Assembly: GCF_036014215.1 (NCBI RefSeq)
Contig: NZ_CP107921.1
Span: 7,189,501 to 7,253,500, forward strand
Reading direction: 5' to 3'
Length of the DNA: 64,000 nucleotides
From: Streptomyces sp. NBC_00440
GTDB lineage: Bacteria > Actinomycetota > Actinomycetes > Streptomycetales > Streptomycetaceae
In this document: piece by piece, positions 6,031 through 32,861 of the stretch
How positions within the stretch are numbered: position 1 is the stretch's first letter
Layout of the letters: every line of letters begins with the position of its first letter
Notes under the pieces: model-generated
Told to the model about the DNA's origin: nothing
What the model saw: the letters and a program-made list of their open reading frames with translations, nothing else
Database searches by the model: none
Position numbers and translations under genes: made by a program

Positions 6031-7027
6031 TCACGGAGTCGGGCGGTGTGACGCCCTCCCCGTCCAGGCCCCGGAGCAGCATCCGTACCATCAACCGCCC
6101 CATGCCCTCGATGTCCTGACGGACCGTCGTCAGTGGCGGGTCGGTGCACTCCGCCACCTTCTCCATGTCGTCGAACCCCACCACCGCCACGTCGTGGGGG
6201 ACCCGTCTGCCGTGTTCCCGCAGGACCTGGAGCGCCCCCGATGCCATCAGGTCGTTGGCCGCGAACACCGCGTCCACCTCCGGCCGCCGCTCAAGCAGTT
6301 CGGACATCGCCGCGGCGCCGCTCTCCACCGTGAAGGCACCGTGTGCGGTGAGCCCGGGGTCGACGTCCAGCAGGACATCCCGGTAGCCGTCCAGCCGGTC
6401 GATCCCCGATGTCTGGTCCTGCGGGCCCGCGATGTGCGCGATGTGCCGGCGTCCGAGCGAGACCAGATGCTGGACCGCCGTGCGGGCGCCGCCCCGGTTG
6501 TCGCAGTCGGCGTAGGGCAGCGCGAGACCGGACTCGGGGCCCGCCCACACCGGCCGGCCGCCGAAGACCGTGGGGATCCCGGCCCGGTGGATCACGGCGG
6601 GCAGCGGATCCTCGGTGTGCAGCGAGAAGGCCAGCGCGCCGTCCACATGGCCGCCCGCCAGATAACGCCCGATCCGGTCGTAGTCCTTCCGGCCCTCCAC
6701 CAGCAGCAGTACCAACTGCGAGTCGTGGGCCGTCAGTTCGCGGCTGATGCCGCGCAGCTGCTGGGAGAAGAACGGGTCCGAGAAGATCCGGATCTCCGGC
6801 TCGGCGATGATGACCGCGACCGCGCCGTTGCGCCGGGTGACGAGCGTCCTGGCCGCGTGATTCGGTACGTAGCCGAGTTCCTCGACAGCCTGCTGGACCC
6901 GGTCCACCAGCGGCTGCCGCACACCGGCACCGCCGTTGACGACGCGCGAGGCCGTCGCCCGCGACACACCCGCGCGGGCCGCGACGGCCTCCAGGGTCGG
7001 CCGGGAGCCGTGGATCGGATCGGTCAA
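5993..7027 (-). CDS. LacI family transcriptional regulator
   Basis: The 344-residue repressor has a LacI helix-turn-helix at the very N-terminus (LEAVAARAGVSRATASRVVNG, hinge NHAARTLVTRR) and a periplasmic-binding-protein-like sugar-sensing core (FFSQQLRGISRELTAHDSQ; DAVFAANDLMASGALQVL; VAVVGFDD). The start is TTG 7027, six bases after a GAGGAG box; the frame is open further upstream but that extension would displace the DNA-binding domain. No sugar transporter lies next to it, so the target is not apparent from context. It overlaps the convergent MpaB-family gene by 38 bases. Confidence 0.9.
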   Translation of the reverse strand: MTDPIHGSRPTLEAVAARAGVSRATASRVVNGGAGVRQPLVDRVQQAVEELGYVPNHAARTLVTRRNGAVAVIIAEPEIRIFSDPFFSQQLRGISRELTAHDSQLVLLLVEGRKDYDRIGRYLAGGHVDGALAFSLHTEDPLPAVIHRAGIPTVFGGRPVWAGPESGLALPYADCDNRGGARTAVQHLVSLGRRHIAHIAGPQDQTSGIDRLDGYRDVLLDVDPGLTAHGAFTVESGAAAMSELLERRPEVDAVFAANDLMASGALQVLREHGRRVPHDVAVVGFDDMEKVAECTDPPLTTVRQDIEGMGRLMVRMLLRGLDGEGVTPPDSVIMPTDLVRRVSA

Positions 7028-7131
7028 CGGGTACTCCTCGTCGGGCGCGGCAGCAGGGCGTACGGGTACTCGCTCCGCGGCGGTGCTCGGGCCGCGGTAT
7101 CGGAGCAGCGTAACCACCGCCCGCCGCGCGC

Positions 7132-7174
7132 AGGAAGCCGCGCCGCCCCGGTCGACGGGACGGCGCGGCCTCCT
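7132..7174 (-). terminator. hairpin terminator after the M1 peptidase gene
   Basis: Fourteen-base GC-rich arms (7132-7145 and 7161-7174, one wobble pair) lie nine bases beyond the peptidase stop and before the LacI-type gene on the same strand. There is no U tract, which is common in Streptomyces terminators. Confidence 0.7.
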
Positions 7175-7182
7175 GTCGCAGG

Positions 7183-8676
7183 TCAGCGGTCGTGGACGGT
7201 GTGCGTCCGCTCGATCTGCCGCCAGGACTTCGGCGCCACGGGCCGGGCGTCCGTATGCGCGATCCGGGCCTGCTTCGCCGCCCCCGCTGCGGGCTTGGAC
7301 GGGGTGAACAGCCAGGTGTCGAAGAAGGCGGCCAGCGGCTTCCCCGAGACCTGCTCGGCGTACTTCTCGAAGTCGGCCACCGACGCGTTGCCGTAGGCGT
7401 GCTCGGCGGGCCACCCCTTGAGGATCTTGAAGAACGCGGTGTCACCGATCTTGTCGCGCAGCGCCTGGATGGCGAGCGCGCCCCGGTCGTAGACGGCGTC
7501 GTCGAACTGGTTCGCCGCGCCGGGATCGCCCGGCTTCACCTTCCAGAACGCGTCGTCGGCCGGGTGCGAGGCGTACACATAGTCCGCCAGCTCCTGCGCG
7601 GTCCCGTCGCCCTGGTTCTCCGACCAGAGCCACTCGGCGTAGGACGCGAACCCCTCGTTGATCCAGATGTCCTTCCAGCCCTTGAGGGACACGTCGTCGC
7701 CGTACCACTGGTGCGCCAGCTCATGGACGACCACCGAGACATTGGCGCCGTTCGCGAACTGCTTCGGGCTGTAGAACGGCCGGGTCTCGGTCTCCAGCGC
7801 GTACCCGGTGGTGGTGTTCGGCACATAGCCGCCGAGCGCGCTGAAGGGATAGGGGCCGAAGTACCCGCTCAGCCAGTCGGCGACCTCCCCGGTCCGCTCC
7901 ACACTGGCGCGCGCGGCGCCGGCGTTGTCGCCCAGGTCCTTGCTGTACGCGTTGATGATCGGCACACCCGCCGCCGTGGTGCCGGTGGTGATGTCGAACT
8001 TGCCGACGGCGAGCGTCGTCAGATAGGTGGCCTGCGGCTTGTTCGACCGCCAGTTGTACGTGGTCCGGCCCAGCTGTGAACGCTGCGACTGGAGCACGCC
8101 GTTGCTGATCGCCTGGGTACCGTCGGGCACCGAGACCGACACGTCGTACGTGGCCTTGTCCAGCGGGTGGTCATTGCTCGGGAACCACCACCACGCCGAC
8201 TCGGGCTCGTCCGCCGCGACCGCGCCGTCCGGGGTGCGGTGCCAGGTGTTGAAGCCGTACGCCGACTTGGTGGACGGCACACCGCTGTAGCGGACCACGA
8301 TGGTCACCGCGGAGCCCTTGGCCAGCCCCTTGGCCGGGGTGACCACCAGCTCGTGCTGCCCCGATGTGGCGAAGGAGGCCTTGGCGCCGTTGACGCGCAC
8401 CTCGCTCACATCGAGCAGGAAGTCCAGATCGAACCGGGAGAGATCCTGGGTGGTGGTGGCCAGGATCGTCGCGGTGCCGTCCAGCCGGTCCGTCGACGGC
8501 TGGTACTTCAGCTTGAGGTCGTAGTGCGAGACGTCGTATCCGCCGTTGCCGTACGCCGGGTAGTACGGGTCGCCGATGCCCGGTGCCCCGGGCGTGAAGC
8601 CGGCCGCCGATGCCGGGATCGCCAGCAGAAGCGAGGCGGCCGAGAGCACGCTCGGGACGATGAGTCTGCGGTGCAC
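7183..8676 (-). CDS. secreted M1 family zinc metallopeptidase
   Basis: This 497-residue protein is an aminopeptidase of the M1 (gluzincin) family. It begins with a Sec signal peptide (MHRRLIVPS, a hydrophobic core and an ASA cleavage site at about residue 24). Zinc and catalytic residues are in HELAHQWYGD with the third ligand Glu in NEGFASYAEW 18 residues later. The M1 N-terminal saddle domain precedes it. It lacks the large C-terminal helical domain of PepN, as is usual for this shorter exported group. The protein is expected outside the cell or at the wall, releasing N-terminal residues from peptides. Confidence 0.92.
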   Translation of the reverse strand: MHRRLIVPSVLSAASLLLAIPASAAGFTPGAPGIGDPYYPAYGNGGYDVSHYDLKLKYQPSTDRLDGTATILATTTQDLSRFDLDFLLDVSEVRVNGAKASFATSGQHELVVTPAKGLAKGSAVTIVVRYSGVPSTKSAYGFNTWHRTPDGAVAADEPESAWWWFPSNDHPLDKATYDVSVSVPDGTQAISNGVLQSQRSQLGRTTYNWRSNKPQATYLTTLAVGKFDITTGTTAAGVPIINAYSKDLGDNAGAARASVERTGEVADWLSGYFGPYPFSALGGYVPNTTTGYALETETRPFYSPKQFANGANVSVVVHELAHQWYGDDVSLKGWKDIWINEGFASYAEWLWSENQGDGTAQELADYVYASHPADDAFWKVKPGDPGAANQFDDAVYDRGALAIQALRDKIGDTAFFKILKGWPAEHAYGNASVADFEKYAEQVSGKPLAAFFDTWLFTPSKPAAGAAKQARIAHTDARPVAPKSWRQIERTHTVHDR

Positions 8677-19622: not shown

Positions 19623-20612
19623 TCATTTGCGGCGCGCGCCGGGGTGTCGCAGGCACCAGCCTTCCCAGGCCGACTCGACCATCTCGCGCACCCCGCGCGA
19701 GGCCTTCCAGCCGAGTTCCCCGGCGATCAGCTCGTCCGACGCGACGGCCTTCGCCGCGTCGCCCGGACGGCGCGGTCCGACCACGGGGGACATCGGCAGC
19801 CCGGTGACCGAGGCGACGAGGTCCGCCAGTTCGCGCACCGATACGCCCGCGCCGCGGCCGACATTGAGCGTGAGATCCCCCGCACCGCCGTCGGCGGAGA
19901 GCCTGCGGGCCACGGCGACATGGGCGTCGGCGAGATCGGCGACATGGATGTAGTCACGGATACAGGTGCCGTCGGGTGTGGGGTAGTCGGCGCCGAAGAT
20001 CCGCGGGTCCTCACCGCGGGTCAGCCGGTCGAAGAACATCGGGATGACGTTGTGGACCCCGATGTCGGCCAGCCCGGGCGCGGCCGCACCCGCCACATTG
20101 AAGTAGCGCAGGCAGGCGGTGGACAGGCCGTGCGCCGTGCCCGCCGCCCGCACCAGCCACTCGCCGGCCAGCTTCGTCTCGCCGTACGGATTGATGGGCG
20201 CGCAGGGCGTCGACTCGGTGATCAGCTCCGCTTCGGGGACGCCGTAGACGGCGGCCGACGAGGAGAACAGGAAGCGCCGCACCCCGGCGGCGACCACGGC
20301 CTCCAGCACCACGGTCAGGCCGTGCACGTTGTCCCGGTAGTAGCTCAGCGGGTGCTCGACGGACTCCCCGACCTGCTTCTTGCCCGCGAGATGCACGACC
20401 CCGGTGATGTCACCTCCGTGAGCGGTCAGGGTGGCGTCCAGGAGGCCGCGGTCGAGCACCGAGCCGCGCACCAGCTCGACCCCGGCCGGAAGGCGTTCGG
20501 CGAGCCCGCTCGACAGGTCGTCCAGGACGACCACCCGCTCGCCGTCCGCCACCATCGCCCGCGCCACATGCGCTCCGATGTACCCCGCCCCACCTGTGAT
20601 CAGCCACGTCAT
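19623..20612 (-). CDS. galE: UDP-glucose 4-epimerase
   Basis: This 329-residue extended short-chain dehydrogenase interconverts UDP-glucose and UDP-galactose. It shows the NAD-binding motif TGGAGYIGAHV, the SSSAAVYG segment with the catalytic Ser/Thr region, YGETK (catalytic Tyr-Lys) and the substrate-side RYFNVAGA. AGGGTGG precedes ATG 20612. It is divergent from the glycerol-1-phosphate gene run and may supply a nucleotide sugar to its glycosyltransferase; this link is positional only. Confidence 0.93.
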   Translation of the reverse strand: MTWLITGGAGYIGAHVARAMVADGERVVVLDDLSSGLAERLPAGVELVRGSVLDRGLLDATLTAHGGDITGVVHLAGKKQVGESVEHPLSYYRDNVHGLTVVLEAVVAAGVRRFLFSSSAAVYGVPEAELITESTPCAPINPYGETKLAGEWLVRAAGTAHGLSTACLRYFNVAGAAAPGLADIGVHNVIPMFFDRLTRGEDPRIFGADYPTPDGTCIRDYIHVADLADAHVAVARRLSADGGAGDLTLNVGRGAGVSVRELADLVASVTGLPMSPVVGPRRPGDAAKAVASDELIAGELGWKASRGVREMVESAWEGWCLRHPGARRK

Positions 20613-20761
20613 ACCGGCCACCCTAAGACACCCCGGAGAGGCCCCGGAGACACCGCGGCTCTGCCTCTTCCGAGCGGAACGGGAGCACGGTTTGTGGGGC
20701 GAGGCATGGATCGATCATGATGACCGCAGCAGGTGGCGCGGGGTCATGCCCGGTCGGATCG

Positions 20762-20886: not shown

Positions 20887-22662
20887 CTGTCGACCGCCAT
20901 CCTCGCCGGTGCGCCGGTACCCGGATCGTCGCTGGAGGGCGATCTGCGGTCGCTGGGCTTCGATGTACGCATCGCATCCGACGCGGCAGAGACCGCGCAG
21001 CTGCTCACCGCCGCACCGGCCGACGAACGCGTGGCGGTCGTCGACACCCGTTTCGTCGGCCATCTCCACTCGCTCCGCCTGGCGCTGACCGATCCCCGCT
21101 TCGCGGCGGCCGCGGTCCCCGGCGCGCTCGCGGTCCAGCCGGAGGCGCGCCCCGCGCTCAACCGCGTACTGGCGGCCGCGGAACCGCGCCCCGACACCCT
21201 GGCCGCGGCGCTGGACAGCGCCGGGACCCCCGTGCAGCGCCCCGAGCTGGGCACGCTGGTCGCCTCGGTCCCGCAGGACCCGCAGTCCCGCCACGAGGCC
21301 AGGGCCGCCGTCGCCGCCGTCGATGACGAGGCCGTGCGGCTCCGTACGGCGGTGAAGTCCCGGGACGGCTTCTTCACGACGTACTGCATCAGCCCCTACT
21401 CGCGGTACATCGCACGCTGGTGCGCCCGCCACGGGCTGACCCCGAACCAGGTCACCACCGCCTCGCTGATCACCGCGCTGATAGCGGCGGCCTGCGCCGC
21501 GACCGGCACCCGCGGCGGATACATCGCCGCCGGAGTGCTGCTGCTCTGCTCCTTCGTCCTGGACTGCACGGACGGTCAGCTCGCCCGGTACTCGCTCCAG
21601 TACTCGACGCTCGGCGCCTGGCTGGACGCGACCTTCGACCGGGCCAAGGAGTACGCCTACTACGCGGGGCTCGCGCTGGGTTCGGCCCGCAACGGCGACG
21701 ACATCTGGGTGCTGGCCCTCGGCGCGATGGTCCTCCAGACCTGCCGGCACGTCGTGGACTTCTCCTTCAACGAGGCGAACCACGACGCGACAGCCAACAC
21801 AAGTCCCACCGCCGCCCTCTCCGACAAGCTCGACAGCGTCGGCTGGACGGTCTGGGTGCGCCGCATGATCGTGCTCCCGATCGGTGAACGCTGGGCCATG
21901 ATCGCCGTGCTCACCGCCGTGACCACCCCCCGGATCGTCTTCTACGCGCTCCTCATCGGCTGTGCCCTGGCCGCCTGCTACACCACGGCCGGCCGGATCC
22001 TGCGCTCGCTGACCCGCCGGGCCACCCGCACGGACCGCGCCGCCCAGGCACTGGCCGACCTCGCCGACTCGGGACCGCTCGCCGAGCTCTTCGCACGGTT
22101 CCTCAAGGGACCGCGCGGTGCCCTGCCGGTGATCGCGTTCGTGGGCGGCGCCCTCGTGGTGGCCGTGTCGCTCTTCGCGCCGGTCGGCAGCTGGTGGCCC
22201 GCCGCGGCCGCCGCCGTGTACTGCGTACTCTCCGGAACGGCCGTCTCGCGCCCGCTCAAGGGCGCGCTCGACTGGCTGGTGCCCCCGGTCTTCCGGGCGG
22301 CCGAATACGTCACGATCCTCGTGCTCGCGGCCCGCTCCGACGTCCACGAGGCGCTGCCCGCGGCCTTCGGACTGGTGGCGGCCGTCGCCTACCATCACTA
22401 CGACACGGTGTACCGCATCAAGGGCGGCACCGGCGCGCCGCCCCGGTGGCTCGTGCGTACGATCGGCGGCCACGACGGCCGGACCCTGGTGGTCGCCGTA
22501 CTCGCCGCCCTGCTCACGGCGGAGCACACCGCCGGTGACGGTTTCGCAGTCGCGCTCACGGTGCTCGCCGTGGCCGTGGCGATCGTGGTCCTCGCGGAGA
22601 GCATCCGCTTCTGGGTGTCCTCCGGAGCACCCGCTGTACATGACGAAGGAGAACCCGCATGA
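20887..22662 (+). CDS. DUF5941/CDP-alcohol phosphatidyltransferase family membrane protein
   Basis: The 591-residue protein transfers a phosphoalcohol from a CDP-alcohol. A soluble N-terminal part (1-160) precedes a linker (KSRDGFFTTYCISPYSRYIA) resembling that of inositol-phosphate cytidylyltransferase/DIPPS fusions. The membrane domain carries the full DxxDGxxARx8Gx3Dx3D motif (DCTDGQLAR to DATFD), and further membrane helices follow. An in-frame TGA at 20878 and the AAGGAG box at 20872 leave CTG 20887 as the likely start; the first conventional codon, GTG 21031, would delete conserved-looking sequence and has no ribosome-binding site. It overlaps the cytidylyltransferase gene as ATGA. Confidence 0.85.
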   Translation: MSTAILAGAPVPGSSLEGDLRSLGFDVRIASDAAETAQLLTAAPADERVAVVDTRFVGHLHSLRLALTDPRFAAAAVPGALAVQPEARPALNRVLAAAEPRPDTLAAALDSAGTPVQRPELGTLVASVPQDPQSRHEARAAVAAVDDEAVRLRTAVKSRDGFFTTYCISPYSRYIARWCARHGLTPNQVTTASLITALIAAACAATGTRGGYIAAGVLLLCSFVLDCTDGQLARYSLQYSTLGAWLDATFDRAKEYAYYAGLALGSARNGDDIWVLALGAMVLQTCRHVVDFSFNEANHDATANTSPTAALSDKLDSVGWTVWVRRMIVLPIGERWAMIAVLTAVTTPRIVFYALLIGCALAACYTTAGRILRSLTRRATRTDRAAQALADLADSGPLAELFARFLKGPRGALPVIAFVGGALVVAVSLFAPVGSWWPAAAAAVYCVLSGTAVSRPLKGALDWLVPPVFRAAEYVTILVLAARSDVHEALPAAFGLVAAVAYHHYDTVYRIKGGTGAPPRWLVRTIGGHDGRTLVVAVLAALLTAEHTAGDGFAVALTVLAVAVAIVVLAESIRFWVSSGAPAVHDEGEPA

Positions 22663-23411
22663 TCGGCCTCGTACTGGCGGCCGGCGCAGGCAGGCGTCTG
22701 CGTCCCTACACCGACACGCTGCCCAAGGCCCTCGTGCCCGTCGGCCCCGAGGGGGAGGGCGAGCCGACCACCGTTCTCGACATCGCGCTGAGCAACTTCG
22801 CCGAGGTCGGACTCACCGAGGTCGCGGTCGTCGTCGGCTACCGCAAGGAGGCGGTGTACGCGCGCCGTGCGGAGTTCGAGGCCAAGTACGGCGTCACGAT
22901 CACGCTGATCGACAACGACAAGGCCGAGGAGTGGAACAACGCCTACTCCCTCTGGTGCGCCCGTGAGGTGCTCAAGCAGGGTGTGATCCTCGCCAACGGC
23001 GACACCGTGCACCCGGTCTCCGTCGAGAAGACACTGCTGGCCGCGCGCGGCGAAGGCCGGCGGATCGTCCTCGCCCTCGACACGGTGAAGCACCTCGCCG
23101 ACGAGGAGATGAAGGTCATCACGGACGGCACCGACGCGGTGACCAGGATCACCAAGCTGATGGACCCCTCGACCGCCACCGGCGAGTACATCGGGGTCAC
23201 CCTCATCGAGCCCGAGGCCGCCGAGGAGCTCGCGGACGCGCTCAAGGTCACCTTCGAGCGCGACCCCGACCTCTACTACGAGGACGGCTACCAGGAGCTG
23301 GTGAACCGCGGCTTCCGGATCGACGTGGCTCCGATCGGGGACGTCGCCTGGGTCGAGATCGACAACCACGACGACCTCGCGAAGGGCCGTGGCATCGCGT
23401 GCCAGTACTGA
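22659..23411 (+). CDS. LicC-like phosphoalcohol cytidylyltransferase (NTP transferase domain)
   Basis: The 250-residue protein is a sugar-phosphate nucleotidyltransferase-fold enzyme: GLVLAAGAGRRLRPYTDTLP with Lys in PKALVPV forms the NTP-binding loop. The segment EEWNNAYSLWCARE matches the NNxYSL pattern of phosphocholine and inositol-phosphate cytidylyltransferases, and LANGDTVHP is the metal-binding position. Its neighbours point to activation of an alcohol phosphate, most simply sn-glycerol-1-phosphate, to a CDP form; this is inference. GAAGGAGAA precedes the ATG, which overlaps the upstream stop. The 3' end overlaps the next gene by 13 bases. Confidence 0.85.
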   Translation: MIGLVLAAGAGRRLRPYTDTLPKALVPVGPEGEGEPTTVLDIALSNFAEVGLTEVAVVVGYRKEAVYARRAEFEAKYGVTITLIDNDKAEEWNNAYSLWCAREVLKQGVILANGDTVHPVSVEKTLLAARGEGRRIVLALDTVKHLADEEMKVITDGTDAVTRITKLMDPSTATGEYIGVTLIEPEAAEELADALKVTFERDPDLYYEDGYQELVNRGFRIDVAPIGDVAWVEIDNHDDLAKGRGIACQY

Positions 23412-24460
23412 CGAGGCTCATCCCGTCCCCGGTCGTCGTCGACATCAGCAGCGGCGCCCTCGACGACTTGGCGGGGCTCCTCGCCGACCAGCGGATCTCG
23501 GCCTCCGGCAAGCTCGCCCTCGCCGTCAGTGACGGCTCGGGCCGGGCGCTGCGCGAGAAGCTCGCGCCGGTGCTGCCCGGGGCCGACTGGTACTCCGTCG
23601 CCGACGGCACCATCGACTCCGCGGTGCGGCTGGCCGACGGGATCAAGGGCAAGCGGTACGACGCGGTGGTCGGCCTCGGCGGCGGCAAGATCATCGACGT
23701 GGCGAAGTACGCGGCGGCCCGGGTGGGGCTCCCGATGGTCGCCGTAGCGACGAATCTCTCGCACGACGGCATCTGCTCGCCGGTATCCACCCTGGACAAC
23801 GACAACGGACGCGGCTCCTACGGGGTCCCGACCCCCATCGCGATCGTCGTCGACCTCGATGTGATCCGTGAGGCACCGCCCCGCTTCATCCGCTCCGGCG
23901 TCGGTGACGCGATCTCCAACATCTCGGCCATCGCCGACTGGGAGCTCTCGCACAAGGTCAACGGCGAAGCGGTCGACGGACTGGCGGCGGCCATGGCCCG
24001 CACCGCGGGCGAGGCGGTCCTGCGCCACCCCGGCGGGGTCGGCGACGACGAGTTCCTGATGGTGCTCGCCGAGGGGCTCGTCCTCTCCGGCATCGCGATC
24101 TCGATCAGCGGCGACACCAGGCCCTCGTCCGGTGCCTGCCACGAGATCTGCCACGCCTTCGACCTGCTCTTCCCCCAGCGGGCCGGCAGCCACGGCGAGC
24201 AGGTCGGTCTCGGCGCCGCCTTCGCGATGCACCTGCGCGGCGCGGCCGACGAGGCCGGGCTCTTCGCGGACGTCCTGCGCCGGCACGGCCTGCCCGTGCT
24301 GCCCGGCGAGCTGGGCTTCAGCGTGGACGAGTTCGTCCAGGCCGTGCAGTACGCCCCGCAGACCCGCCCCGGACGCTTCACGATCCTGGAACACCTCAAC
24401 CTGTCCGCAGACCAGATCAAGGACGCTTACGCCGACTATGCAAAAGCCATCGGTAGCTGA
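23399..24460 (+). CDS. sn-glycerol-1-phosphate dehydrogenase (EgsA/AraM family)
   Basis: The 353-residue iron/zinc-type alcohol dehydrogenase fold reduces dihydroxyacetone phosphate to sn-glycerol-1-phosphate in known relatives. Diagnostic features are the nucleotide-binding GLGGGKIIDVAKYAA, the ATNLSHDGICSPVS stretch containing the family's SHDG signature, and the metal site in SGDTRPSSGACHEICHAF and QRAGSHGEQVG. These separate it from ordinary iron alcohol dehydrogenases and phosphonoacetaldehyde reductases. The start is GTG 23399, inside the previous gene. Glycerol-1-phosphate is the archaeal-lipid enantiomer and unusual in bacteria; no PcrB-like prenyltransferase is present in the window. 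Confidence 0.85.
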   Translation: MPVLTRLIPSPVVVDISSGALDDLAGLLADQRISASGKLALAVSDGSGRALREKLAPVLPGADWYSVADGTIDSAVRLADGIKGKRYDAVVGLGGGKIIDVAKYAAARVGLPMVAVATNLSHDGICSPVSTLDNDNGRGSYGVPTPIAIVVDLDVIREAPPRFIRSGVGDAISNISAIADWELSHKVNGEAVDGLAAAMARTAGEAVLRHPGGVGDDEFLMVLAEGLVLSGIAISISGDTRPSSGACHEICHAFDLLFPQRAGSHGEQVGLGAAFAMHLRGAADEAGLFADVLRRHGLPVLPGELGFSVDEFVQAVQYAPQTRPGRFTILEHLNLSADQIKDAYADYAKAIGS

Positions 24461-25217
24461 ACTCCGCCCGGTCGTTCACCCTCCGGGCGTCAAGGACCGG
24501 CGGAGCGGCGAGCACTGGGGCGGCCGGCTCTACATGCGCGAGATTTCGCTGCGCGTGGACCGGCACCTGGTGAACACGCGGATCACGCCCAACCAGCTGA
24601 CCTACGTGATGACCGTCGCCGCCGCCTTCGCCGCCCCTGCCCTCCTCGTGCCGGGGATCTGGGGCGCGGTGCTCGGCGTGCTGATGGCTCAGCTCTATCT
24701 GCTTCTCGACTGCGTCGACGGCGAGGTCGCCCGCTGGAAGAAGCAGTACTCGATGGTCGGCGTCTACGTGGACCGCGTAGCCGCCTATGTACTCGACGCC
24801 GCGGTCCTCGTCGGCTTCGGTCTGCGCGCGGCCGACATCTGGGGCTCCGGGCGGATCGACTGGCTGTGGGCCTTCCTCGGCACCCTCGCGGCCCTCGGCG
24901 CCGTCATGATCAAGTCCGAGACCGACCTCGTCGGCGTCGCCCGCCACCAGCAGGGACTGCCGCCGGTCAAGGAGACGGCGTCCGAGCCGCGCTCCTCCGG
25001 CATGGCGCTGGCCCGCAGGGCGGCCGCGGCGCTGAAGTTCCACCGGCTCGTCCTCGGCATCGAGGCGTCGCTGCTCATCCTGGTCCTCGCGATCGTGGAC
25101 CAGATCAGGGGCGACCTGTTCTTCACGCGGCTCGGCGTCGCCGTGCTGGCGGGCATCGCGCTCCTGCAGTCCCTGCTCCACCTCGTGTCCGTCCTCGCCT
25201 CCAGCAGGCTCAAGTGA
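24438..25217 (+). CDS. CDP-alcohol phosphatidyltransferase family membrane protein, variant motif
   Basis: This 259-residue integral membrane protein has the start of the CDP-alcohol transferase motif intact (DCVDGEVAR, eight residues, G, three residues, D). The last Asp of the pattern, the proposed catalytic base, is replaced by Ala (DRVAA). The ITPNQLTY segment before it is typical. The ATG at 24438 overlaps the dehydrogenase gene by 23 bases, indicating translational coupling. The altered motif suggests either another residue acting as base, possibly Asp four positions later (YVLD), or a non-catalytic partner of the first transferase. Confidence 0.85.
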   Translation: MQKPSVAELRPVVHPPGVKDRRSGEHWGGRLYMREISLRVDRHLVNTRITPNQLTYVMTVAAAFAAPALLVPGIWGAVLGVLMAQLYLLLDCVDGEVARWKKQYSMVGVYVDRVAAYVLDAAVLVGFGLRAADIWGSGRIDWLWAFLGTLAALGAVMIKSETDLVGVARHQQGLPPVKETASEPRSSGMALARRAAAALKFHRLVLGIEASLLILVLAIVDQIRGDLFFTRLGVAVLAGIALLQSLLHLVSVLASSRLK

Positions 25218-26113
25218 CGGCCCCCGGCGGGGGCGGCTCCGCGAAGGTCGGCGCGGTCATCATCACGATGGGCAACCGCCCCGACGAGCTGCGCGCACTG
25301 CTGGATTCCGTCGCCAAGCAGGACGGCGATCCGGTCGAGACGGTCGTCGTCGGCAACGGCGCACCCGTGCCGGACGTCCCCGAAGGCGTACGGACCGTCG
25401 AGCTGCCCGAGAACCTGGGCATCCCCGGCGGCCGCAACGTCGGCATCGAGGCCTTCGGCCCGGCCGGCACCGACGTCGACATCCTGCTCTTCCTCGACGA
25501 CGACGGGCTGCTGCCCAACACCGACACGGCCGAGCTGTGCCGCCAGGCCTTCGCGGCCGACCCCGAGCTGGGCATCATCAGCTTCCGGATCGCCGACCCC
25601 GACACCGGGGTCACCCAGCGCCGCCACGTCCCCCGGCTGCGCGCATCCGACCCCATGCACTCCTCGCGCGTCACGACCTTCCTCGGCGGGGCCAACGCCG
25701 TACGGTCCAAGGTCATCGCCGAGGCCGGACCGCTCCCCGGCGAGTTCTTCTACGCGCACGAGGAGACCGACCTGGCGTGGCGGGCCCTCGACGCCGGCTG
25801 GATGATCGACTACCGGTCCGACATGGTGCTGCACCACCCCACCACGGCCCCGTCCAGGCACGCGGTCTACCACCGCATGGTGGCCCGCAACCGTGTCTGG
25901 CTGGCCCGCCGGAATCTGCCCGCACCGCTGGTGCCGGTCTACCTGGGGGTGTGGATGCTGCTCACGCTGGTCCGCCGCCCCTCCGGAGCCGCGCTCAAGG
26001 CATGGTTCGGCGGGTTCAAGGAGGGCTGGACGACTCCCTGCGGAACACGCCGACCGATGAAATGGCGTACGGTCTGGCGGCTGACCCGACTGGGCCGGCC
26101 ACCGGTGATCTGA
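25214..26113 (+). CDS. family 2 glycosyltransferase
   Basis: The 299-residue GT-A fold protein begins VGAVIITMGNRPDELRALLD, has the nucleotide-sugar/metal motif in LLFLDDDGLLP and the acceptor-side FFYAHEETDLAWRALDAGW, as in rhamnosyl- and galactofuranosyl-type GT2 enzymes. A single hydrophobic stretch near the C-terminus (PVYLGVWMLLTLV) could anchor it to the membrane. GTG 25214 overlaps the previous stop as GTGA. It probably decorates the product of the two phosphoalcohol transferases before export by the ABC transporter that follows. Confidence 0.88.
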   Translation: MTAPGGGGSAKVGAVIITMGNRPDELRALLDSVAKQDGDPVETVVVGNGAPVPDVPEGVRTVELPENLGIPGGRNVGIEAFGPAGTDVDILLFLDDDGLLPNTDTAELCRQAFAADPELGIISFRIADPDTGVTQRRHVPRLRASDPMHSSRVTTFLGGANAVRSKVIAEAGPLPGEFFYAHEETDLAWRALDAGWMIDYRSDMVLHHPTTAPSRHAVYHRMVARNRVWLARRNLPAPLVPVYLGVWMLLTLVRRPSGAALKAWFGGFKEGWTTPCGTRRPMKWRTVWRLTRLGRPPVI

Positions 26114-26210
26114 GAAGCTCGATTCTGAGAGCATCGGACGTACTCCGGGGCCCGGCATCCGAGCCCGGTCCCGATCCAGCAGCGCATCTTGAACACGAAA
26201 GTTTCAACTT

Positions 26211-27140
26211 GTGAGTGACACAACCCATGACGGAGCGGTCGCGCTGAGCGACCGCCCGTCTCCCGACGACGGTCTGTCCTCGGCCGAGCTGGCCGGGAAG
26301 TACGGCCTGTCGGTGAGCGGTGCCCGGCCTGGACTCATGGAGTACGTCCGCCAGATCTGGGGACGGCGCCACTTCATCCTGGCCTTCTCGTCCGCGAAAC
26401 TGTCGGCCCAGTACAGCCAGGCCAAGCTGGGCCAGGTCTGGCAGGTGGCGACCCCGCTGCTCAACGCGGCGGTCTACTACTTCATCTTCGGCCTGCTCCT
26501 CAACACCAGGCGGGGGCTGCCGCACGACGTCTTCATCCCCTTCCTGGTGACCGGGGTCTTCGTCTTCACCTTCACGCAGAGCTCGGTGATGGCCGGTGTC
26601 CGGGCGATCTCGGGGAACCTCGGTCTGGTGCGGGCGCTGCACTTCCCGCGGGCCTCGCTGCCCGTCTCGTTCGCGCTCCAGCAGCTCCAGCAGCTGCTGT
26701 ACTCGATGATCGTGCTGATCGTGGTCGCCGTCTGCTTCCACAGCTATCCGTCGCTGTCCTGGCTCCTGGTCATCCCCATCCTCGCGATGCAGTTCGTGTT
26801 CAACACGGGCCTGGCCCTGATCATGGCCAGGCTCGGCAGCAAGACGCCCGACCTCGCGCAGCTGATGCCGTTCATCATGCGTACCTGGATGTACACGTCG
26901 GGCGTGATGTTCTCCATCACGGTCATGCTCAAGGGCAAGCCGCCGTGGATCGCCCATGTGCTCCAGTGGAATCCGGCCACCGTCTACATGGACCTGGTCC
27001 GGTTCGCTCTGATCGACGGTTACGGCGCCGAGAACCTGCCTCCGCACGTCTGGGCGGCCGCAGCGGCCTGGGCGGTCCTGCTGGGCCTCGTGGGCTTCGT
27101 GTTTTTCTGGAAGGCTGAGGAGCGGTACGGCCGTGGCTGA
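26211..27140 (+). CDS. ABC transporter permease, TagG/Wzm-like (ABC-2)
   Basis: The 309-residue ABC-2 permease has an N-terminal cytoplasmic segment and six predicted membrane helices. SSAKLSAQYSQAKLGQVWQV and LLNAAVYYFIFGLLL are typical of polysaccharide and teichoic-acid exporters (Wzm, TagG), as is the late NPATVYMDLVRF. GTG 26211 is used; the upstream box is weak. It overlaps its ATPase gene by eight bases. The type implies export of a lipid-linked glycan or phosphopolymer rather than a small molecule. Confidence 0.9.
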   Translation: MSDTTHDGAVALSDRPSPDDGLSSAELAGKYGLSVSGARPGLMEYVRQIWGRRHFILAFSSAKLSAQYSQAKLGQVWQVATPLLNAAVYYFIFGLLLNTRRGLPHDVFIPFLVTGVFVFTFTQSSVMAGVRAISGNLGLVRALHFPRASLPVSFALQQLQQLLYSMIVLIVVAVCFHSYPSLSWLLVIPILAMQFVFNTGLALIMARLGSKTPDLAQLMPFIMRTWMYTSGVMFSITVMLKGKPPWIAHVLQWNPATVYMDLVRFALIDGYGAENLPPHVWAAAAAWAVLLGLVGFVFFWKAEERYGRG

Positions 27141-27918
27141 GCAAACCAATCAGGGGTACATCCCCACGGTCATCGCGGACGACGTGCACATCGTGTACCG
27201 CGTCAACGCCGGCGGCGGCGGCAAGGGCGCGGCCACCGCAGCGCTCAGCCGCATCGTGGGCAAAGACAAGAGCGCCGCGCGCGGTGTCCGCAAGGTGCAC
27301 GCCGTACGCGGGGTGACCTTCACGGCCTACCGGGGCGAGGCCATCGGCCTCATCGGCTCCAACGGCTCCGGCAAGTCCACCCTGCTGCGGGCCATCGCCG
27401 GGCTGCTGCCGACGGAGAGCGGCAAGGTCTACACCGACGGCCAGCCGTCGTTGCTCGGTGTCAACGCCGCACTGATGAACGACCTGACCGGCGAGCGCAA
27501 TGTGATCCTCGGCGGTCTGGCCATGGGCATGTCGCGCGAGGAGATCCGCGAGCGGTACCAGGGGATCGTCGACTTCTCCGGCATCAACGAGAAGGGCGAC
27601 TTCATCACCCTGCCGATGCGGACGTACTCGTCGGGCATGGCGGCGAGGCTCCGGTTCTCCATCGCGGCGGCCAAGAACCACGACGTCCTCATGATCGACG
27701 AGGCGCTGGCCACCGGCGACCGCAAGTTCCAGATCCGTTCGGAAGAGCGCATCCGCGAGCTGCGGAAGGAGGCCGGCACGGTCTTCCTCGTCAGCCACAG
27801 CAACAAGTCGATCAGGGACACCTGCGACCGCGTCCTGTGGCTGGAGAAGGGCGAACTGCTGATGGACGGCCCGACCGAGGAGGTCGTCAAGGCGTACGAG
27901 AAGGAGACCGGCAAGTAG
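27133..27918 (+). CDS. ABC transporter ATP-binding protein, TagH/Wzt-like
   Basis: The 261-residue ATPase has Walker A GSNGSGKST, signature TYSSGMAARLRFSI and Walker B DVLMIDEALATGD. YSSGM and ALATGD are diagnostic for the TagH/Wzt subfamily. It lacks a C-terminal carbohydrate-binding extension, so it resembles the short form that does not recognise a chain-terminating modification. It is the last gene of the seven-gene run, followed by a strong hairpin. Confidence 0.92.
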   Translation: MAEQTNQGYIPTVIADDVHIVYRVNAGGGGKGAATAALSRIVGKDKSAARGVRKVHAVRGVTFTAYRGEAIGLIGSNGSGKSTLLRAIAGLLPTESGKVYTDGQPSLLGVNAALMNDLTGERNVILGGLAMGMSREEIRERYQGIVDFSGINEKGDFITLPMRTYSSGMAARLRFSIAAAKNHDVLMIDEALATGDRKFQIRSEERIRELRKEAGTVFLVSHSNKSIRDTCDRVLWLEKGELLMDGPTEEVVKAYEKETGK

Positions 27919-30393: not shown

Positions 30394-31782
30394 ATGACAG
30401 CCGACGCGGCGCGGCCGACGCGCGCGGTCGTGGTCGGCGGGGGGCTGGCCGGTACCACCGCCGCACTCGAACTCGCCGGCGCGGGCGTACGCGTGACCCT
30501 GCTCGAAGGCCGGCCCCGGCTGGGGGGTCTCGCCTTCTCCTTCCAGCGCGGCGAACTGACCGTCGACAACGGCCAGCACGTGTACCTGCGCTGCTGCACC
30601 GCGTACCGCTGGTTCCTCGACCGGATCGAAGGGGCCGCCCTAGCGCCCCTCCAGGACCGGCTCGACGTGCCCGTGCTCGACATCGCGCCCGCGAGCGGCC
30701 CGCGTCTTGGCCGGCTGCGCCGCAGCGGACTGCCGGTGCCGCTGCACCTGGCCCGGAGCCTCGCGACGTACCCGCATCTCTCGCTCGCCGAGCGGGCGAG
30801 TGTCGGCCGCGCCGCGCTGGCGCTCAAGGGACTCGACCTCGCCGATCCCGCCCTGGACGACACCGACTTCGCGAGCTGGCTGCGCGCGCACGGGCAGTCC
30901 GACCGCACCATCGAGGCCCTCTGGGACCTGGTGGGCGTCGCGACGCTCAACGCGACCGCGCCGCACGCCTCGCTGGGTCTCGCCGCGATGGTGTTCAAGA
31001 CCGGGCTGCTCTCCGAAGCGGGCGCGGCCGACATCGGCTGGGCCCAGGTGCCGCTCGGCGCCCTGCACGACACGCTCGCCCGCAAGGCCCTCGACGCGGC
31101 GGGGGTGCGCACCGAACTGCGCGCCAGGGCCGCCGGTGTCGGCCGGGCCGCGGACGGGAGCTGGCGGGTGGAGACCGACGGCGAGACGCTGGAGGCCGAC
31201 GCCGTGGTGCTCGCCGTACCGCAGCGCGAGGCCCATGCGCTGCTCCCCGAAGGGGCGCTCGACGAGCCGGAGAGGCTGCTGGAGATCGGTACGTCACCGA
31301 TCCTCAACGTCCATGTCGTGTACGACCGCAAGGTGCTCCGCCGGCCCTTCTTCGCCGCGCTCGGCACCCCGGTCCAGTGGGTCTTCGACCGTACGGACTC
31401 CTCGGGTCTCCAGGGCGGCGGGCAGTACCTGGCGCTGTCCCAGTCCGTCGCCGACGACGACATCGACCAGCCCGTCTCCGTTCTCAGAGAGCGCTATCTC
31501 CCGGAGCTGGAGCGCCTGTTGCCCGCGGCGCGCGGCGCCGGTGTACGGGACTTCTTCGTCACCCGTGAGCGCACCGCGACCTTCACTCCGGCCCCCGGTG
31601 TCGGACGGCTGCGTCCCGGCGCCCGTACCCGCATCCCCGGCCTCTGCCTGGCCGGGGCGTGGACCGCCACTGGCTGGCCCGCGACCATGGAGGGCGCGGT
31701 GCGCAGCGGTCTCAGCGCCGCCGGTGCCGTGCTCACCACGCTCGGCCGTACCCACGACCATCCGCTTCAGGAGGCGGCATGA
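30394..31782 (+). CDS. hpnE: hydroxysqualene dehydroxylase HpnE
   Basis: The 462-residue FAD-dependent amine oxidase-fold enzyme reduces hydroxysqualene to squalene. AVVVGGGLAGTTAALELAGAG is the FAD-binding dinucleotide fold, VDNGQHVYLRCC the typical HpnE segment, and LCLAGAWTATGWPATMEGAV the C-terminal FAD motif. ATG 30394 follows an excellent ribosome-binding site; the frame is open upstream through hpnD, but that is antisense-free overlap of GC-rich coding sequence. It ends overlapping the polyprenyl synthase gene by four bases. Confidence 0.93.
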   Translation: MTADAARPTRAVVVGGGLAGTTAALELAGAGVRVTLLEGRPRLGGLAFSFQRGELTVDNGQHVYLRCCTAYRWFLDRIEGAALAPLQDRLDVPVLDIAPASGPRLGRLRRSGLPVPLHLARSLATYPHLSLAERASVGRAALALKGLDLADPALDDTDFASWLRAHGQSDRTIEALWDLVGVATLNATAPHASLGLAAMVFKTGLLSEAGAADIGWAQVPLGALHDTLARKALDAAGVRTELRARAAGVGRAADGSWRVETDGETLEADAVVLAVPQREAHALLPEGALDEPERLLEIGTSPILNVHVVYDRKVLRRPFFAALGTPVQWVFDRTDSSGLQGGGQYLALSQSVADDDIDQPVSVLRERYLPELERLLPAARGAGVRDFFVTRERTATFTPAPGVGRLRPGARTRIPGLCLAGAWTATGWPATMEGAVRSGLSAAGAVLTTLGRTHDHPLQEAA

Positions 31783-32861
31783 GCACTGTTACTGGAACAA
31801 GAGGAGAGCCTGTGACCCCGGCCGCAGACACCGTCGATATTGTCGCGCTCCTGGAGCGCGGACGGACCCTGTCCTCACCGGTGCTGCGCGCTGCCATTGA
31901 CCGGCTCGCACCGCCCATGGACACGGTCGCCGCCTATCACTTCGGCTGGATCGACGCCGAGGGGCGCCCCGCGGACGGGGACGGCGGCAAGGCCGTACGC
32001 CCCGCGCTCGCGCTGCTGTCGGCCGAGGCAGCCGGAGCCTCGGCCGAAGCCGGGATCCCCGGCGCCGTCGCGGTGGAACTCGTGCACAACTTCTCGCTGC
32101 TGCACGACGACCTGATGGACGGTGACGAACAGCGCCGCCACCGGGACACCGTCTGGAAGGTGCACGGCCCCGCGCAGGCGATCCTCGTCGGCGACGCGCT
32201 CTTCGCGCTCGCGAACGAGATCCTGCTGGAGCTCGGCACCGTGGAGGCCGGCCGCGCCACGCGCCGTCTGACCACCGCCACCAGGAAACTGATCGACGGT
32301 CAGGCCCAGGACATCTCCTACGAGCACCGCGAACGGGTCACCGTCGAGGAGTGCCTGGAGATGGAGGGCAACAAGACGGGCGCCCTGCTGGCCTGCGCCG
32401 TCTCCATCGGTGCGGTGCTCGGCGGCGCCGACGACCGCACGGCCGACACGCTGGAGGCGTACGGCTACCACCTCGGCCTGGCGTTCCAGGCCGTCGATGA
32501 CCTGCTCGGCATCTGGGGCGACCCGGAGGCCACCGGAAAACAGACCTGGAGCGATCTGCGCCAGCGCAAGAAGTCCCTGCCCGTCGTCGCGGCTCTCGCG
32601 GCCGGCGGACCGGCGTCGGAACGGCTGGGCGAACTGCTCGCAGCCGACGCCAAGAGCAGTGACTTCGACACGTTCTCCGAGGAGGAGTTCGCCGTACGGG
32701 CGGCTCTGATCGAGGAGGCGGGCGGCCGGGAGTGGACCTCGCAGGAGGCCCGCAGGCAGCACGCGATCGCGATCGACGCGCTCACCGGGGTCGAGATGCC
32801 GGAAAGGGTGCGGGCGCAGCTCATCGCGCTCGCCGACTTCGTCGTAGTACGGAAGAGATGA
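31779..32861 (+). CDS. polyprenyl diphosphate synthase (probable farnesyl diphosphate synthase)
   Basis: The 360-residue trans-prenyltransferase has the first Asp-rich motif HDDLMDGD (DDLMD at 110-114) and the second DDLLG (240-244), with KQTWSDLRQRKKSLPVV after it. It elongates DMAPP with IPP; in the hopanoid operon the useful product is farnesyl diphosphate for HpnD. AGGAGG precedes the ATG, which overlaps the hpnE stop. Chain length cannot be stated with certainty from sequence alone; residues before the first motif (HNFSLLHDD) allow C15 to C20. Confidence 0.9.
   Translation: MSTVTGTRGEPVTPAADTVDIVALLERGRTLSSPVLRAAIDRLAPPMDTVAAYHFGWIDAEGRPADGDGGKAVRPALALLSAEAAGASAEAGIPGAVAVELVHNFSLLHDDLMDGDEQRRHRDTVWKVHGPAQAILVGDALFALANEILLELGTVEAGRATRRLTTATRKLIDGQAQDISYEHRERVTVEECLEMEGNKTGALLACAVSIGAVLGGADDRTADTLEAYGYHLGLAFQAVDDLLGIWGDPEATGKQTWSDLRQRKKSLPVVAALAAGGPASERLGELLAADAKSSDFDTFSEEEFAVRAALIEEAGGREWTSQEARRQHAIAIDALTGVEMPERVRAQLIALADFVVVRKR

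Follow-up and report, generated by a model that had tools for sequence, protein, structure and literature searches.

We found that a 64,000-nucleotide stretch of Streptomyces sp. NBC_00440 (here called the window) carries, at positions 20887-27918, a seven-gene operon that we read, with a probability of roughly 0.6, as a TagD-independent route, based on sn-glycerol-1-phosphate (G1P), by which a teichoic-acid-type envelope molecule containing glycerol phosphate is made and exported. The pathway is conserved, real and apparently undescribed, and its teichoic-acid-type destination is probable. The initial annotation of this DNA had proposed a path from dihydroxyacetone phosphate (DHAP) through G1P to a cytidine diphosphate (CDP)-activated glycerol, with export of a product unlike teichoic acid; the conserved gene set fits the path and the export, while the last part found no support.

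We infer every reaction of the route, its stereochemistry, its acceptor and its final product as follows. An AraM-like dehydrogenase would convert DHAP to G1P, and a LicC-like enzyme would turn G1P into CDP-1-glycerol, the enantiomer opposite to the TagD product. A CEPT1/CHPT1-like phosphotransferase would then move glycerol-1-phosphate from CDP-1-glycerol to a membrane lipid acceptor, a family 2 glycosyltransferase (GT2) would add a sugar, likely galactose because of the adjacent galE, and a Wzm/Wzt pair would export the product. In relatives, CDP-1-glycerol may also be used by TagF-family polymerases whose genes adjoin the cluster or lie in another part of the genome.

RESULTS

Gene content of the operon

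Gene calling, translation and profile searches place seven co-directional genes on the + strand, in the order and of the families first claimed for them:

20887..22662, +, CDP-alcohol phosphotransferase 1 (P0001), 591 amino acids; CDP-OH_P_transf 42.4 bits (cut-off 22), DUF5941 323.5 bits (cut-off 27)
22659..23411, +, LicC-like cytidylyltransferase (P0002), 250 amino acids; NTP_transferase 48.5 bits, top PDB match LicC 1jyk
23399..24460, +, EgsA/AraM-like G1P dehydrogenase (P0003), 353 amino acids; Fe-ADH_2 106.6 bits, top PDB matches the G1P dehydrogenases 4rgq/4rfl
24438..25217, +, CDP-alcohol phosphotransferase 2 (P0004), 259 amino acids; CDP-OH_P_transf 35.2 bits
25214..26113, +, GT2 glycosyltransferase, 299 amino acids; GT2 profile 36.4 bits
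26211..27140, +, ABC-2 permease, Wzm/TagG type (P0006), 309 amino acids; ABC2_membrane 55.5 bits
27133..27918, +, ABC ATPase, Wzt/TagH type (P0007), 261 amino acids; ABC_tran 69 bits

The genes mostly overlap, as had been noted: at five of the six junctions they do so, in order by 4, 13, 23 and 4 bp and, after a 97-bp gap before the permease, by 8 bp.

The dehydrogenase and the cytidylyltransferase form a core module

In a class-wide sample of 197 genomes, complemented by 14 control genomes for the family searches, P0003-like proteins (E<=1e-30) were found in 47 genomes and P0002-like proteins also in 47. Both were present in 46 of the 48 genomes having either; in the two discordant genomes (G306, G318) the gene sits at a contig end. 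The two genes lie at most 50 bp apart in 45 of these 46 genomes and 10 kb apart in the other (G303), and their co-occurrence gives a Fisher value of 1.0e-42 over the 197 genomes, a value that ignores kinship. They constitute the core module of the system.

In NCBIfam, the dehydrogenase matches the G1P dehydrogenase (G1PDH) model NF002022 with 234.4 bits and GldA next with 81.1 bits; since the former score lies under the model's cut-off, we term the protein G1PDH-like. Against the PDB, G1PDH entries scored 146, 146, 128 and 81 bits and glycerol dehydrogenases at most 65, except 3ce9 (deposited as such) with 143, and by sequence comparison P0003 is nearer to G1PDH than to glycerol dehydrogenase. 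Aligned to 4rgq, it retains a DG..SP stretch and an Asp/His/His set that is presumably the metal site; across ten aligned G1PDH-like proteins, neither DG..SP nor the His positions vary. In the available excerpt of PMC5059525 a Streptomyces EgsA/AraM sequence is aligned within the G1PDH family, and there and in the excerpt of PMC6431249 actinobacterial G1PDHs are treated as family members.

P0002 matches several NTP-transferase families in NCBIfam, each under its cut-off. It is mainly because of the gene coupling that its substrate is thought to be the product of P0003, and we propose it as a putative CTP:glycerol-1-phosphate cytidylyltransferase. Judged from genome context, the candidate step from G1P to CDP-glycerol is well supported. 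Second copies were seen within the genus: in G352 (L100) a G1PDH that has no LicC stands close to two TagF genes, and in G382 (L101) galE lies downstream of a paired LicC and G1PDH.

The gene set is conserved across actinomycetes

Synteny across actinomycetes had been set beforehand as a refutation test, and the genes are conserved together. At the 66 named loci with full flanks, LicC, phosphotransferase 2 and GT2 are each present in 66, the exporter in 64, a P0001-like gene in 57 and hpnC in 60. For all 80 named loci, which are the best 80 of 569 and mostly from Streptomycetaceae, the counts are 79 for LicC, 78 for phosphotransferase 2, 77 for GT2, 74 for each exporter gene, 64 for P0001-like and 69 for hpnC. 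By these counts the grouping is far beyond chance. P0001 was matched nearly full-length, in one to three pieces, in 25 of 25 same-genus genomes (G000-G024, G000 being the window's own) and in four genomes of f3, a different family within the order. The genus assignment of these genomes follows from named Streptomyces proteins with at least 95% identity to P0001 and P0004.

We inspected 20 regions from other genomes (L040-L059). Those of the same genus (L056-L059) hold all seven genes in the same order, adjoining hpnC/hpnD, and three of family f3 (L052, L053, L055) hold the same gene set with galE within the run; in L054, also of f3, the P0001 relative is on the opposite strand and the locus is cut after GT2. 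Among deeper actinobacteria, L040, L041 and L043 retain LicC-G1PDH-phosphotransferase 2-GT2 and L042 the same minus LicC. A more distant LicC-type gene adjoins G1PDH in L045-L049 and L051; four of these (L046, L047, L048 and L051) also have a CDP-alcohol phosphotransferase frame, 6.5-8.3 kb away. The LicC-type gene of L044 lies 3 kb from G1PDH, and none was found in L050. One contig labelled 'MAG: Bifidobacterium breve' (L110) carries a G1PDH 97% identical to that of actinobacterium acAMD-2 (L111), and the label looks wrong.

The cluster is associated with teichoic-acid genes

TagF-family proteins (PF04464, E<=1e-15) occur, among the matches listed, in 73 of the 197 class genomes, in 44 of the 47 genomes having P0003 and in 3 of the 14 controls; the TagF-P0003 co-occurrence gives a Fisher value of 8.8e-21 (197 genomes, kinship ignored). 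GT2-TagF fusions stand beside the cluster in L052, L054, L085, L086 and L116. The complete set is present in L085, with TagF opposite, and the complete operon in L116 (Embleya hyalina), with TagF near; L086 runs LicC-G1PDH-Wzm-Wzt-TagF(GT2 fusion)-GT4 and has no CDP-alcohol phosphotransferases. TagF is also near in L112 and, among the matches listed, in L087 and L100. Among L052-L055 the TagF scan covered L052 and L054, and in another set of 20 regions the 4/20 with TagF are a biased rate, since these 20 were picked from P0003 matches, G278, G293, G266 and G352 for nearby TagF.

The search of the window's own genome placed no PF04464 match inside the window, and the initial annotation had taken the missing TagF to mean a product unlike teichoic acid. 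This is not supported, given the fusions beside the cluster in relatives, TagF in 44/47 P0003 genomes and two divergent PF04464 proteins elsewhere in the same genome. At L106:5931-9909 and L105:3447-9049, one of these two lies beside an IspD-SDR fusion and the other has a GT2 that bears a TarS linker domain close by; by sequence, a second, ribitol-type teichoic acid system is possibly present. At L108 of the same genome, a CDP-alcohol phosphotransferase gene (6681-7430, +) is convergent with a TagD-like CTP_transf_like gene (7390-8076, -) that scores 67 bits against TIGR01518.

TagD (TIGR01518) was over its cut-off in none of the 197 class genomes, while 7 of the 14 controls matched and two were over it. 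Matches of at least 100 bits occur in 13 of the 197 genomes, none of them with P0003. Of 16 same-genus genomes in the sample, six show weak matches of ~59-67 bits and ten none at 1e-10; such matches say little, because the model also matches 7/14 controls, E. coli included. As for other donors, 41/197 genomes have, at E<=1e-60, an IspD-SDR protein resembling CDP-ribitol synthase or else the IspD part of one. Among the 44 genomes with TagF and P0003, the full IspD-SDR protein occurs in 21, the IspD part in 8 and neither in 15; 12 of the 44, eight of them at least 90% complete, have neither IspD type nor a TagD match at 1e-10. The 28 TagF genomes that have neither P0002 nor P0003 include seven with strong TagD, four of which also have IspD-SDR. 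Of 15 f70 genomes carrying P0003, 14 have an IspD-like gene at a distance of 2.3-4.0 kb from LicC, five of these genes being of the full IspD-SDR type. Altogether, sequence comparison shows which genes make up the set, that they are conserved, that LicC and G1PDH are coupled and that the set is tied to teichoic-acid genes.

The two phosphotransferases and the exporter

Phosphotransferase 1 is modelled with a truncated IspD/TarI-like nucleotidyltransferase domain at residues 1-~145, followed by the phosphotransferase core (185-328, D1-D4 motif intact) and a C-terminal DUF5941 membrane module (383-591). The class I motif D1xxD2G1xxAR...G2xxxD3xxxD4 is complete, and in P0001-type frames of relatives D stands at D4 in 60 of 66, the remaining six giving no pattern match. 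The fold predicted for residues 157-582, C-terminal helices included, is CEPT1/CHPT1-like, and in the model P0001 has the extra C-terminal transmembrane helices beyond the six-helix core that mark this type. DUF5941 is part of the phosphotransferase in Streptomyces, and its predicted fold agrees with the C-terminal module of CEPT1-type enzymes. Such a modelled fold in a CDP-alcohol phosphotransferase suggests that one or more steps use a lipid acceptor. In other families DUF5941 is a separate gene between phosphotransferase 1 and LicC (L041:7320-8195, L090:10222-10974, L093:10056-10706, L104:11075-12013).

The gene starts with CTG at 20887, preceded by AAGGAG; an open reading frame finder that does not admit CTG starts it at 21031 and loses 48 codons. 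A start-pattern scan of 92 loci (L110-L189, L001-L012), which also permitted ATG and GTG, matched 62, the window's own included, and gave no match in 30. The matched starts are CTG in 42, TTG in 20 and ATG or GTG in none, which supports the CTG start as first annotated. Nearly all 62 have an AAGGAG/AGGGAG-like stretch upstream; in 54 of them the start follows closely on an in-frame stop, two codons separating the two, and in the other eight that stop is 19-55 codons back.

P0004 fails the full class I motif, its fourth Asp being replaced by Ala, and orthologues have Ala or His at this position. The altered motif described at the outset is real and fixed among relatives. For the exporter, the best NCBIfam model of the ATPase is TagH (171 bits versus 155 for a galactan ATPase), and the nearest model of the permease is a galactan permease (54 bits, cut-off 380).

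Neighbouring genes

The flanks are as the initial annotation had them, with galE divergent next door and hopanoid genes following:

19623..20621, -, UDP-glucose 4-epimerase GalE; TIGR01179 314.5 bits (cut-off 262.3), divergent, 265 bp upstream of P0001
from 28399, +, hopanoid genes hpnC, hpnD, squalene-hopene cyclase and hpnH; also dxs

galE possibly supplies sugar to the pathway, because in family f3 it lies inside or next to the run (as a co-directional gene separating phosphotransferase 1 from LicC in L052, L053 and L055, directly before LicC in L054). The hopanoid genes are probably not part of the system, since in several genera and families they are not beside the cluster: none were found at the f3 loci L052-L055, and they are missing beside Streptacidiphilus L115, L118 and L164, Embleya L116 and Actinopolymorpha L133, and in the other families inspected. 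A polyprenyl synthetase in the hopanoid cluster (31659-32861) scores 410.6 bits against the family 2 encapsulin cargo polyprenyl transferase model (cut-off 450).

DISCUSSION

Several observations weigh against a G1P-based teichoic-acid route. The dehydrogenase scores below the NF002022 equivalog cut-off of 413, two of ten aligned G1PDH-like proteins (L052, L043) have Glu in place of the GD aspartate, and the ATPase lies under the TagH cut-off of 320. Foldseek alone places CEPT1 only 15th for P0001 (E 0.013), and a shared fold demonstrates no substrate. P0003 occurs without TagF at 1e-15 in G319, G379 and the window's own genome, whose two divergent PF04464 proteins reach 31.0 and 26.5 bits (cut-off 22.1) with no single stretch significant alone. 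The same genome has a CDP-ribitol-synthase-like protein and a weak TagD-like match (67 bits, cut-off 165.4), a possible source of CDP-3-glycerol. Of the 28 TagF genomes without P0002/P0003, 21 lack strong TagD and a TarI(J)-like match (8 of the 21 show a weak TagD-like one), so that TagF presence alone does not demand a G1P route. Finally, conservation and co-occurrence were counted without correction for shared ancestry.

Among other explanations, the exported product might be a glycan resembling a capsule or O-antigen, not a teichoic acid, to which the operon adds single glycerol-1-phosphate groups; TagF would then use other CDP-polyols, and its association would reflect lineage history. The absence of PF04464 from the window, the CDP-ribitol-synthase-like or TarI-like matches in 29 of the 44 TagF- and P0003-bearing genomes and the galactan-like scores of the exporter would agree with this; we nevertheless regard it as unlikely, as L086 joins LicC-G1PDH-Wzm-Wzt to TagF without CDP-alcohol phosphotransferases and in 12 TagF genomes the searches turned up none of the other donors. 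A Kennedy-type lipid route, in which P0001 would use CDP-1-glycerol to attach glycerol-1-phosphate to diacylglycerol or a glycolipid and a phosphatidylglycerol-like lipid or phosphoglycolipid would be the end product with no polymer, seems to us rather unlikely. It draws on the CEPT1/CHPT1-like predicted fold, and transfer from CDP-1-glycerol to diacylglycerol would yield the ordinary sn-1' head-group configuration; on the other hand, the conserved GT2 and Wzm/Wzt genes and the linkage to TagF and TarI-like genes suit a polymer better.

That P0002 and P0003 act on other substrates (e.g. inositol phosphate or another ketose), 'G1P' being an annotation by resemblance, would be in line with their sub-cut-off scores and with 3ce9, a close PDB relative of P0003 deposited as a glycerol dehydrogenase. 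We consider this improbable: G1PDHs are the best matches of P0003, the excerpt of PMC5059525 aligns a Streptomyces EgsA/AraM sequence with that family, and the pairing with TagF/TagGH-type genes suits glycerol. Most improbable of all is that G1P feeds archaeal-type prenyl ether lipids. The excerpt of PMC6431249 lists Streptomyces among the genera with G1PDH, GGGPS and DGGGPS and proposes archaeal-like lipids from gene presence, and isoprenoid genes adjoin the operon. That proposal is not supported by our PcrB search: in keeping with the initial annotation, which saw no PcrB-like prenyltransferase, the PcrB/GGGPS family is over its cut-off in 0/197 class genomes, has no match at E<=0.001 in the window's genome, and none of its 14 weak matches (E<=0.001) in the class sample falls in a genome with P0003. 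The same search matches 7 of the 14 controls, five over the cut-off, and the cluster itself has no such gene.

The teichoic-acid-type route we favour shares features with several known systems. As in the B. subtilis tag system for wall teichoic acid (TagD, TagF, TagGH), a CDP-glycerol donor is proposed, the exporter is TagGH/Wzm-Wzt-like, and TagF is encoded next to the cluster in some relatives or at another place in the genome; unlike it, there is no TagD over the cut-off, there are two CDP-alcohol phosphotransferases, and the window's operon has no TagF. The donor is expected to be the opposite enantiomer, because it would be made from G1P by a G1PDH and a LicC-type enzyme. The Bacillus AraM/PcrB route to heptaprenylglyceryl phosphate likewise makes G1P with an AraM-type dehydrogenase; here, PcrB is missing and the dehydrogenase is paired with a cytidylyltransferase, not a prenyltransferase. 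IPCT-DIPPS/AF2299 of Archaeoglobus fulgidus (glycerophosphoinositol) also combines a phosphotransferase with a nucleotidyltransferase-like N-terminal domain and uses a CDP-alcohol donor, whereas in P0001 that domain is truncated and a CEPT1-like C-terminal module is added, next to GT2 and exporter genes; the A. fulgidus products of this type are intracellular solutes. Eukaryotic CEPT1/CHPT1 of the Kennedy pathway resemble residues 157-582 of P0001 in predicted fold, C-terminal helices included, while P0001 is bacterial, has an N-terminal domain and presumably uses CDP-1-glycerol.

As first supposed, we found no description of the set as a pathway in the open-licence literature searched, which omits most subscription papers. 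Section 3.10 of PMC13118837, a 2026 Streptomyces pan-proteome synteny list, places a CDP-alcohol transferase, GT2, a sugar phosphate nucleotidyltransferase, araM, tagG, tagH and crtB in one syntenic region under teichoic acid biosynthesis; its available part gives synteny only: it describes no pathway, says nothing of stereochemistry or of the absence of TagD, and stays within Streptomyces. From the excerpted Discussion of PMC8262930 (2021), CDP-1-glycerol is likely absent from bacteria, and the glycerol-phosphate cytidylyltransferase activity of A. fulgidus is told to favour Gro1P. According to the excerpts of PMC7086022 and PMC3196553, GlpQ identifies wall teichoic acid of B. subtilis as Gro3P and its lipoteichoic acid as Gro1P, and Streptomyces has lipoteichoic acid and no clear LtaS.

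More tentatively, it is conceivable that actinobacterial glycerol-phosphate polymers are built from CDP-1-glycerol, such that wall and lipid teichoic acids would both be sn-glycerol-1-phosphate, with the CEPT1-like enzyme priming the lipid without LtaS. Its companion P0004, which lacks the catalytic base, would be a partner subunit or use a phosphate nucleophile (e.g. undecaprenyl phosphate), since such a nucleophile needs no base. The prediction is mirror-image teichoic acids.

If the proposed route is true, 'archaeal' G1P would head a widespread bacterial envelope pathway, which would account for the G1P dehydrogenase that many actinobacteria retain without the archaeal-lipid prenyltransferase. 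It would also provide a CDP-glycerol source for TagD-less actinomycetes and bear on the synthesis of lipoteichoic acid in Streptomyces without a clear LtaS.

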